Assembly: GCA_030835825.1 (NCBI GenBank)
Contig: JAURRA010000018.1
Coordinates: 1-64,000, forward strand
DNA from: Flavobacteriaceae bacterium
Lineage (GTDB): Bacteria > Bacteroidota > Bacteroidia > Flavobacteriales > Flavobacteriaceae
Length of the DNA stretch: 64,000 bases
Reading direction: 5' to 3'
Positions 47,388-49,811 of this stretch are shown here, one piece after another. Position 1 is the stretch's first letter; each line of letters begins with the position of its first letter. Under the pieces are notes generated by a model, which was not told the DNA's origin, ran no database searches, and saw only the letters and a list, made by a program, of their open reading frames with translations. Position numbers and translations under genes: made by a program.

Positions 47388-47418
47388 TTGTAATTTGTCC
47401 ATTTGAATCTTATCTTTG
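47388..47418 (+). promoter_or_regulatory. Promoter of the coiled-coil/zapA operon
   Basis: A TTG at 47388-47390 and TATCTTTG at 47411-47418 are separated by 20 nt, a full Bacteroidota promoter pattern. The box ends 22 nt before the start codon at 47441. Confidence 0.65.
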
Positions 47419-47440: not shown

Positions 47441-47731
47441 ATGCAAGATGCATTACATACCTTAAAGTCAATTGAAAAGAGTTCATCGCTTTTGATGGAG
47501 CGCTATGATACTCTCCGAGAAAGTCACAAGGCCTTGCAGCTGGAGCTGGATTCGACAAAGTCTAAACTTGAGATGCAACAGCTTGATTTAGAAGAATGTC
47601 AGCATAAATTTCAGTCCTTGAAGCACGCTAATACTTTGTTAGGTAGTGATAACGACAAACGAGATACAAAGCTCAAAATCAATACACTCATAAGAGAAAT
47701 AGATACTTGTATAGCGCAATTATCGCAATAA
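47441..47731 (+). CDS. Small coiled-coil protein, ZapB-like
   Basis: A 96-residue cytosolic protein, almost wholly heptad coiled coil (about 10-70), with no signal peptide. It stands 6 nt before zapA. In Flavobacteriales a short coiled-coil gene commonly precedes zapA, so a role with the division ring, like ZapB, is likely, but sequence alone gives no direct family match. Confidence 0.7.
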   Translation: MQDALHTLKSIEKSSSLLMERYDTLRESHKALQLELDSTKSKLEMQQLDLEECQHKFQSLKHANTLLGSDNDKRDTKLKINTLIREIDTCIAQLSQ

Positions 47732-47737
47732 AGGCAT

Positions 47738-48040
47738 ATGACCGATCACTTAAAAATAAAATTATCAATTGCTAATAGGATTTATCCTTTGAATATTGTG
47801 AAAGATCAGGAAGAGGGATTGCGACGCGCTGCACAAAAAATTGATCAAATGATAAAACAATTTGAGCAAAGCTATTCGGTTCGAGATAAGCAAGATGTAT
47901 TGGCCATGTGTGCCCTGCAATTTGCCTCTCAAATTGAACAGCAAGACATTGATAAATCGGGTTTAGATGATAGCTTAAAAGATCGATTATTAGAAATCGA
48001 TCAACAATTGAAAGCGCATTTGGATTCGAACGTTCTTTAA
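47738..48040 (+). CDS. zapA: Cell division protein ZapA
   Basis: A 100-residue FtsZ-ring associated protein. The N-terminal beta-strand region (KIKLSIANRIYPLNIVKDQE) and EEGLRRAAQKIDQMIKQFEQ with following helix are typical ZapA features. It works by cross-linking FtsZ filaments. It follows the coiled-coil gene and precedes a structured RNA and rny. Confidence 0.9.
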   Translation: MTDHLKIKLSIANRIYPLNIVKDQEEGLRRAAQKIDQMIKQFEQSYSVRDKQDVLAMCALQFASQIEQQDIDKSGLDDSLKDRLLEIDQQLKAHLDSNVL

Positions 48041-48052
48041 ATAAACAGTTAT

Positions 48053-48225
48053 TACTGCCTGTACTGGTGATTATTTTTGATAAACTCAACGAATAATTCT
48101 TATAAAAGGGGTGTATAAAGATTGTAAAAGCGAGCTGCCTTCGAGCAGATACTTGATCAGTTTTTGAGCCTCTAAGCTTAATTTATAGGAGTTTATGCAA
48201 ATCATATCCAGTGCAGGCTTTTTAA
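48053..48225 (+). ncRNA. 6S-type RNA candidate (6S-Flavo like)
   Basis: The 203-nt gap between zapA and rny holds a long-range stem: GCCTGTACTGG (48057-48067) pairs with CCAGTGCAGGC (48208-48218), 11 bp with one G-U pair, enclosing 140 nt. It is followed at once by a T-rich end. Inside is a short CTGC/GCAG hairpin near 48139. A long rod closed by a strong terminal stem and placed just after zapA is the arrangement of 6S RNA genes (ssrS), which bind RNA polymerase. Location and closing stem support this; a covariance-model match is not available here. Confidence 0.6.
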
Positions 48226-48242
48226 TTTTTAAAAATAAAGTA

Positions 48243-49811
48243 ATGGACATAGTTTTTATAGCAGTTGGGATTTTAGGAGGGATTATACTAGGTTTGGTCA
48301 TTTCCCGATTATCAGAGAAGTCTAGGGCCTCAAAAGTATTGGATCGAGCGAAAAGCGAGGCTGGTCAAATCATTAAGGAGGCTAAAACTAATGCGGAGAA
48401 CATGAAGCGAGACAAAATGCTTCAAGCCAAAGAAAGATTCCTTGAGCTGAAAACCGAACATGAAAAAGTCATTCTAGATCGTGACCGCAAAATTTCTGAA
48501 GTAGAAAAACGACTTAGGGACAAAGAGTCTCAGTTGAACTCCGACTTAGCCAAAGTCAAACAATCGAATTCCGCTCATGCACAGGCCAAGCAAGATTATC
48601 AGAGAAGAGTAGAATTACTCGAAAAGCGTCAAGAAGATCTTGATAAGGCAAAAAATCAACAAATCAACCAACTAGAGGTCATTTCAGGCATGTCTGCTAG
48701 TGAAGCGAAAGAGCAGCTCTTTGAATCACTTAAAGACAAAGCGAAAAATGATGCCATGGCCTATACACAGGCTAAATTAGACGAAGCTCAGCTCACCGCC
48801 GAAAAAGAAGCAAAACGAATTATTATCAATACGATTCAAAGGATAGGGACCGAAGAGGCAGTTGAAAACTGTGTATCGGTTTTCAACATTGAGTCCGATG
48901 ATGTCAAAGGCCGAATCATTGGTAGAGAAGGCAGAAATATCAGGGCTTTAGAGTCTGCTACAGGAGTTGAAATCATTGTAGACGACACTCCTGAAGCGAT
49001 CATTCTATCCTGTTTTGATCCTGTTCGTAGGGAAGTTGCCCGCTTGTCTTTGCACAAATTGGTCACCGATGGACGGATTCACCCTGCAAGAATTGAAGAG
49101 GTAGTGGCTAAGACCCTAAAGCAAATCAATCAGGAGATTATTGAGGTAGGTAAGAGAACAGTAGTTGATCTGGGTATCCATGGTCTCAATTCTGAATTGA
49201 TCAAATTGGTTGGACGCATGAAATACCGGTCCTCATACGGACAAAATTTATTGCAGCATTCAAGAGAGGTTGCCAAACTCTGCGGCATAATGGCTTCAGA
49301 GCTTGGATTAAACGCTAAAATGGCCAAGAGGGCTGGATTGTTACACGATATTGGAAAAGTACCTGAGGCTGAGACTGATATGGAAACGCCACACGCTATT
49401 TTAGGGATGCAATGGGCCGAGAAATACGGTGAAAAACCTGAAATATGTAATGCCATTGGCGCGCATCACAATGAGATTGAAATGAAATATTTGATCTCAC
49501 CCTTGGTTCAAGTGTGTGATGCTATTTCTGGGGCTAGACCAGGAGCGCGTCGGCAAGTTATGGATTCCTATATTCAACGATTAAAAGATTTAGAAGCAAC
49601 AGCGTATAGCTTTCAGGGTGTTGAAAAGGCATTTGCCATTCAAGCTGGTCGAGAACTTCGTGTCATTGTAGAAAGTGATAAAATTAGCGATGAGAATGCG
49701 GCCAAGTTATCCTTTGAAATAAGTCAGAAAATACAAACAGAAATGACCTATCCCGGACAGGTTCGAGTGACTGTAATTCGTGAGACCAGAGCAGTAAACA
49801 TTGCTACCTAA
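48243..49811 (+). CDS. rny: Ribonuclease Y
   Basis: A 522-residue membrane-anchored endoribonuclease that begins mRNA decay. It has an N-terminal transmembrane helix (about 2-21, [20 protein letters not shown] in part), a long coiled coil (about 30-180), a KH RNA-binding domain ([20 protein letters not shown] at about 220) and an HD catalytic domain with HSREVAKL and LLHDIGKV near 340-380. The ATG at 48243 is chosen since it puts the membrane helix at the N-terminus; an upstream ATG at 48195 lies within the presumed 6S RNA. Its stop abuts xerD's stop. Confidence 0.95.

Follow-up and report, generated by a model that had tools for sequence, protein, structure and literature searches.

6S RNA is a known brake on RNA polymerase. 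The locus described here, lying between a cell-division gene and the gene of ribonuclease Y in a member of the Flavobacteriaceae, raises the question of whether such an RNA is encoded in the gap and, if so, from which signals it would be transcribed. Throughout, the window denotes the whole stretch of 64,000 nucleotides that was analysed. The features on which the argument draws are the following:

47411–47418, forward strand: TATCTTTG, putative −7 element of the primary sigma factor (TAnnTTTG), the only conserved promoter-like site found ahead of the 6S RNA
47441–47731, forward strand: small gene encoding a 96-aa protein that looks coiled-coil-like by eye and is ZapB-like by position only
47738–48040, forward strand: zapA (PF05164, E 2.9e-18), stop codon 48038–48040
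48032–48042, forward strand: boxA-like element GTTCTTTAAAT, overlapping the zapA stop and sharing 10 of 11 letters with the published boxA GTTCTTTAAAA
48055–48224, forward strand: 6S RNA of 6S-Flavo type, its span taken from the match of model R1
48057–48067, forward strand: 5' arm of the 11-bp closing stem (from the fold; two-sided changes in relatives)
48208–48218, forward strand: 3' arm of the same stem (from the fold; two-sided changes in relatives)
48219–48223, forward strand: U-run (TTTTT) after the closing stem, a conserved T-run in alignment A1
48243–49811, forward strand: rny (RNase Y), with PF12072 (RNase_Y_N, E 4.7e-33), KH and HD domains; start taken from aligned relatives

The RNA in the gap between zapA and rny

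An earlier note had placed a 6S-type RNA between zapA and rny and proposed a covariance-model search for 6S-Flavo as a check. Pfam confirmed both forward-strand genes and the RNA does lie between them, but the note missed the real start of rny, as it did the boxA-like element and the apparent lack of a promoter belonging to the RNA itself. The mechanically called rny frame opens at ATG 48195, within the 6S RNA, while the start conserved among relatives is ATG 48243, so that the gap spans 48041–48242 (202 nt). Over 48195–48242, an automatic annotation of rny could overlap the 6S RNA. The proposed search, run with RF01685 (6S-Flavo) under permissive filters, returned a full-length match at 48084–48194 covering model positions 1–108 of 108 (78.7 bits, E 2.5e-13), which bears out the assignment even though it falls below the curated gathering score of 85, an annotation rule and no biological feature. 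Because of this score default Rfam scanning is blank here, and a scan of the window at the gathering score or default thresholds gave no match. Genome-wide, the 6S RNA of the window was the single RF01685 match at E up to 10, and RF01693 (Bacteroidales-1) gave 18.5 bits at this locus (E 1.2), short of its gathering score of 60. Model R1, which was built from 39 sequences including that of the window, matched 48055–48224 with 139 bits (E 9.1e-23). These matches confirm that 48055–48224 encodes a 6S RNA of about 165–170 nt belonging to 6S-Flavo, a family known since 2010 and listed for Bacteroidetes (Weinberg et al. 2010, PMC2864571).

The RNA resembles RF01685 in full-length sequence and structure and departs from it in its score (78.7 bits versus 85) and in two extra bases. 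The latter lie on the 5' side of the central bubble, are shared within the genus (L001, L033, L034) and occur elsewhere in alignment A1 only in L039. RF01685 scores in two same-genus genomes were 77.9 and 76.9 bits, a third (55% complete) gave no RF01685 match, and 20 of the 40 relatives searched passed the cut-off of 85. The scores below 85 thus mark the genus as a divergent member of the family that annotation by cut-off overlooks.

Folding of the 170-nt stretch predicted a single long interrupted hairpin made up of closing stem, central bubble and apical stem. The 11-bp long-range stem with a T-rich 3' end, which had been noted before, was recovered in both the MFE and the centroid structure, and the MFE of −51.4 kcal/mol surpassed all 200 dinucleotide shuffles (−34.8 ± 3.5; z −4.68; 0/200 as good). 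The opposite strand folded more weakly (z −2.27; 4/200 shuffles as good). In alignment A2 (39 sequences, the window among them), 25 of 36 pairs showed two-sided changes, with a covariation score of 0.481; shuffles reached 0.240 and slid versions no more than 0.113. As 9 of the 12 pairs of helix 1, the closing helix, had changed on both sides there (97.0% of cells paired), the closing stem is not a chance pairing. Alignment A3, which comprises 41 of the 50 zapA-linked distant loci and was fitted to the model, a procedure that favours structure, gave two-sided changes in 32 of 36 pairs and in 12 of 12 pairs of helix 1 (92.8% of cells paired). The RF01685 match does not reach the closing stem, which is nevertheless among the best-supported parts of the RNA and, together with the U-run at 48219–48223, likely forms the 3' end as an intrinsic terminator. 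In A1, long spacers before rny led us to shorten two sequences (L021, L028) at their 3' ends. We also considered imitation of a promoter by a TAnnTTTG look-alike on the 3' side of the 6S bubble; this was not supported, since at least 5 of 6 letters were present at that column in only 11 of 39 sequences and other columns scored higher.

Gene order among relatives and across phyla

Searches with RF01685 yielded 41 places, of which one (G324, E 0.0018) came without a locus, leaving 40 loci for examination. In 39 of them the RNA is preceded by zapA and followed by rny, both on its strand, with a gap of 198–293 nt, which makes the 6S RNA of the window orthologous in place with members that pass the RF01685 cut-off. 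The exception (L012, E 4.7e-4) has neither zapA nor rny and stands outside A1 and all counts over 39 loci. The RF01685 scan of the class (12/295) under-counts, as R1, applied to an overlapping sample with an E threshold of 0.01, gave matches in 80 of 395 class genomes; 64 of these lie outside the order. Those 64 distant matches were found by the RNA alone, and in 50 cases zapA and in 49 cases rny is located no further than 1.5 kb away, a neighbourhood that lends support to matches which are weak in themselves; in the other 14 the 6S RNA lies away from zapA. Of 20 zapA-linked loci selected from the 50, none reached an Rfam 6S cut-off, and three were matched by a 6S family at E up to 0.1. A scan of the phylum gave 53 of 395, all in families f1 and f2 besides four matches in f16 and f57 that had already been seen. 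The synteny held in all fresh loci, 31/31 from the same family and 6/6 from family f2. The RNA start of one locus (L129) was re-located by script. One class genome outside the order carries a Flavo-1 RNA (RF01705) above cut-off (L119, 2483–2569, reverse strand).

The gene ahead of zapA follows the same distribution. A homologue of the 96-aa protein was found in 39/39 Flavobacteriales and 49/50 other zapA-linked loci and in 0/14 unlinked ones. For beta- and gammaproteobacteria the order zapB-zapA-ssrS has been published (PMC7641849). The name ZapB was nevertheless dropped for the protein of the window, as it has no ZapB match and no Pfam family over the cut-off, and the two proteins are alike only in size, coiled-coil look and place.

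Beyond Bacteroidota, zapA precedes the 6S gene (ssrS) on the same strand in E. coli, where fau follows downstream, in agreement with the earlier remark that a 6S gene follows zapA in Proteobacteria. Among the best-scoring 30 Desulfobacterota loci (NCBI: Thermodesulfobacteriota; from 63 genomes with a match), zapA adjoins 6S in 23 and rny lies within 1.5 kb downstream in all 30. Among the Elusimicrobiota (best-scoring 30 loci from 39 genomes with a match, plus L314), zapA adjoins 6S in 31/31 and rny is present in three. The loci with zapA include L338, L358 and L359, which are cut by contig ends. Across 30 genomes of many phyla, RF00013 matched in 20, with zapA beside the match in Grimontia, Mannheimia, Panacagrimonas, Herbaspirillum and Lampropedia; ORF inspection, with ZapA confirmed by Pfam, placed zapA beside 6S in Syntrophaceae and Elusimicrobia genomes as well, and Microvirga has a weak ZapA match about 0.7 kb upstream of 6S. 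The ZapA HMM found no match beside 6S in the loci of Bacilli, Clostridium, cyanobacteria and Pseudomonas stutzeri, and neither zapA nor rny was matched within 1.5 kb of the five strong Bacteroidales-1 loci (L088 and L178 denote a single place that enters both this group of five and the 14 unlinked loci).

It is conceivable that separate phyla arrived at the zapA-6S order independently. Such a history would accommodate the lineages with 6S away from zapA (the five Bacteroidales-1 loci, 14/64 distant Bacteroidia, Bacilli, Clostridium, cyanobacteria and Pseudomonas stutzeri) and the differing downstream genes (rny, fau and others), but we regard it as somewhat unlikely in view of the same order and strand in E. 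coli, 23/30 Desulfobacterota, 31/31 Elusimicrobiota and 50/64 distant Bacteroidia, and of rny close downstream in every Desulfobacterota locus examined. Since the order is common to four phyla, E. coli included, common ancestry is the simplest reading, and its recurrence in Desulfobacterota and Elusimicrobiota indicates that the zapA-6S order is probably old. The very old gene order suggested by the note is thus well supported. The neighbourhood in itself may already be on record in earlier gene-context tables.

Promoter motif and boxA-like element

In Bacteroidota, TAnnTTTG is reported to serve as the −7 element for the main sigma factor (PMC7366714). All 39 Flavobacteriales loci have this motif upstream of the small gene, between −602 and −685 relative to the RNA stem; the fresh loci have it between −720 and −580 (31/31 and 6/6), and among the 50 other linked loci 39 have it between −600 and −760 and 11 do not. 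In the 60 nt preceding the RNA, it was found in 0/39 and 0/50 linked loci (shuffle means 1.36 and 1.84); with one to two expected by chance, the motif is not enriched near the RNA, but there is no significant depletion either. Extending the distance to 100 nt gave 1/39 and 4/50, and two of the 31 fresh loci have the motif within 60 nt, both at −58/−59. Ahead of 6S genes away from zapA, TAnnTTTG lies within 60 nt in 8/14 unlinked and 5/5 strong Bacteroidales-1 loci (shuffle means 0.67 and 0.46). This suggests that the 6S RNA of zapA-linked loci has no recognisable promoter of its own as far as the canonical motif is concerned; another type of promoter is conceivable.

Between the RNA and rny, the motif is present in just 2 of 88 loci (a count without L159, which has no rny match). 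Together with the position of the RNA directly before rny and its ending in a stem and U-run, this could be taken to indicate a terminator or attenuator in the rny leader, i.e. a cis element instead of a trans-acting 6S RNA. We consider this highly improbable given the homology to 6S-Flavo over its full length, the related RNAs that some Bacteroidia carry away from rny with a promoter motif of their own, and the reports of a 6S RNA with product RNAs in B. thetaiotaomicron (PMC7366714) and of 6S RNA in F. psychrophilum (PMC9723704). Beside its presumed 6S function, the stretch may have a second role on rny.

At the zapA stop codon lies a candidate signal of a different kind. The Flavobacteriales share an ACGTTC[TA]TTAAAATA-like sequence between zapA and the RNA; in some loci, that of the window included, it falls inside the end of zapA. 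The copy in the window is one letter off the consensus. The A-run of this copy (48032–48042) is one A shorter than in the same-genus loci L033 and L034. In the 100 nt preceding the RNA, 30/39 Flavobacteriales and 43/50 further zapA-linked loci contain the core pattern GTTCWTT (shuffle means of 0.65 and 0.99), compared to 12/1016 and 16/1309 same-strand 100-nt control windows elsewhere in the same loci, and it precedes 6S genes away from zapA in 1/14 unlinked and 0/5 strong Bacteroidales-1 loci. The exact boxA consensus was present in 13/39 and 7/50 linked loci versus 1/1016 and 0/1309 control windows. GTTCWTT had replaced looser boxA patterns before the final counts and was chosen after the first set had been seen, the second set also having been viewed before counting. 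Fresh loci were therefore tested, giving 28/31 for the same family and 0/6 for family f2. These counts do not represent independent events, for the loci are related: genus g2, already present in the first set, supplied 18 of the 31 fresh loci from the same family.

The zapA-6S arrangement does not require the element, which is missing in family f2 (L010, L011 and all six fresh loci) and also in some others. The f2 loci (L010, L011, L400–L405) have a T-run between zapA and 6S, several copies of which are flanked by GGGAAA and CCC/CC. A slightly wider boxA pattern was found in 1/30 Desulfobacterota and 4/31 Elusimicrobiota loci and is also absent from L338, L358 and L359; by eye, the zapA-ssrS gap of E. 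coli has no boxA-like motif. Outside Bacteroidota, two Elusimicrobiota loci (L314, L362) carry boxA-like GTTCTTTGAGCA and GTTCTTTAAAGT, respectively, between zapA and 6S.

The boxA GTTCTTTAAAA has been published from upstream of a Legionella CRISPR array (PMC7862264), and GYTCTTTAANA is given as the gammaproteobacterial boxA in a survey limited to the upstream regions of protein genes in gammaproteobacteria (PMC5725501). The genome of the window encodes NusB. As no 16S gene was found in the assembly, the 16S leader of the same-genus genome G295 (L043) and those of others were used for comparison. The 16S of a same-genus genome shares 88–90% identity with Flagellimonas and Arenibacter and 85% with Chryseobacterium, from which the order and class of the window were taken to be Flavobacteriales and Bacteroidia. 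Of 22 Bacteroidota 16S leaders, counted one per genome, 16 contain GTTCWT[TA], a count made without a shuffle control. Among 11 genomes in which leader and 6S could be compared, the element is present at both in seven (G134, G295, G311, G272, G318, G303, G314) and at neither in two (G294 of f2, G328 of f82), and two disagree (G194, with GCTCTTT before 6S; G320, with GTTCTTT before 6S and the leader form absent). This agreement amounts to a weak parallel between the two kinds of sequence. Both rRNA leaders read from the f2 group likewise lack the usual boxA form. Three 16S leaders (L041, L044, L046) show, by eye, tandem TAnnTTTG-like promoters followed by boxA-like GTTCAT copies.

These observations can be read in two ways. 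The gene could be a plain 6S gene with a non-canonical promoter of its own in the end of zapA, GTTCTTTAAAATA then being part of that promoter and not a boxA. In the Flavobacteriales the element indeed keeps a fairly fixed distance from the RNA (16–36 nt, sd 3.5), and the unlinked 6S genes do carry promoter motifs. In the other families, however, this distance ranges over 12–100 nt (100 nt searched; sd 19.7) while the position relative to the zapA stop stays steady (sd 7.4), which is unlike a promoter element. The element further closely resembles published boxA and its counterparts in the rRNA leaders, where by eye its copies lie downstream of TAnnTTTG, and GTTCTTTRAMATA is rare (61 occurrences in 20 genomes, 0–6 per genome, versus 51 for the reversed pattern) and therefore no common promoter element; the genome of the window has no exact copy of it. 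We thus consider a promoter of this kind unlikely, and the element at the zapA stop is probably boxA-like, a putative site for NusB/S10. The strongest functional hint offered by the comparison is the swap of boxA for a promoter motif between linked and unlinked 6S genes.

A proposed model for the transcription of 6S RNA within a zapA operon

The reading that we favour, at a probability of roughly 70%, is that transcription of the 6S RNA would begin at the promoter preceding the small gene and zapA, that NusB/S10 would load at the boxA-like element and that the 3' end would be leaky. RNA polymerase would start at TAnnTTTG (47411–47418) and read the small coiled-coil-like gene, zapA and the untranslated 6S RNA as one transcript. 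Ribosomes would leave at the zapA stop, where the boxA-like element may recruit NusB/S10; by analogy with rRNA and CRISPR RNAs, these factors would shield the untranslated stretch from Rho and may assist in folding or processing. The 5' end of 6S would then be cut by a nuclease, and the closing stem with its U-run would form a 3' end leaky enough to feed rny. Judged from its family, the mature RNA would be a long interrupted hairpin imitating an open promoter, which would bind RNA polymerase with the main sigma factor as growth slows and be freed by templated product RNAs.

Whether the same would apply to most zapA-linked Bacteroidia seems to us evenly balanced. There, the 6S RNA would be cut from, or end, the zapA operon transcript with an rRNA-like boxA of its own, its level would be coupled to the expression of cell-division genes and to the status of the Nus factors, and readthrough would feed rny; a 6S gene leaving the operon would have lost boxA and gained a promoter, and the zapA-6S pairing would go back to the common ancestor of Pseudomonadota, Desulfobacterota, Elusimicrobiota and Bacteroidota.

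E. coli ssrS has promoters of its own. Its gene (RF00013) follows zapA on the same strand as in the window, but it is followed by fau instead of rny and, by eye, is preceded by no boxA-like motif. The Bacteroidales-1 RNAs (6S-Bacteroidales, RF01693) are similar in design, and two Flavobacteriales loci (G021, G165) match both this model and RF01685 at E < 1e-4; unlike the 6S RNA of the window, the five strong Bacteroidales-1 matches have TAnnTTTG 22–28 nt upstream and neither boxA nor, over 1.5 kb, a zapA or rny match. The boxA elements of rRNA leaders, suhB and CRISPR arrays are reported with the same or nearly the same sequence, and those of rRNA and CRISPR arrays stand before an untranslated RNA as does the copy in the window (PMC5725501; PMC7862264). 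The putative site of the window differs from these in its setting: it belongs to a member of the Bacteroidota, overlaps a stop codon, follows two coding genes and precedes a short regulatory RNA. In the accessible portions of the literature on 6S RNA with boxA, zapA or ribonuclease Y, no such Bacteroidota operon was found, nor was a description of a boxA-like signal ahead of 6S or of an exchange between operon-plus-boxA and own-promoter states. As far as these sources extend, the RNA family is known, and the boxA-like signal before 6S and the exchange of boxA and promoter states are apparently new.

For annotation, model R1 combined with the zapA-rny gap would fill a hole for 6S RNA. If the proposed reading is true, control by boxA and Nus factors would become testable for a second major untranslated RNA, and it would help to explain why 6S RNA has kept the same neighbour across four phyla.
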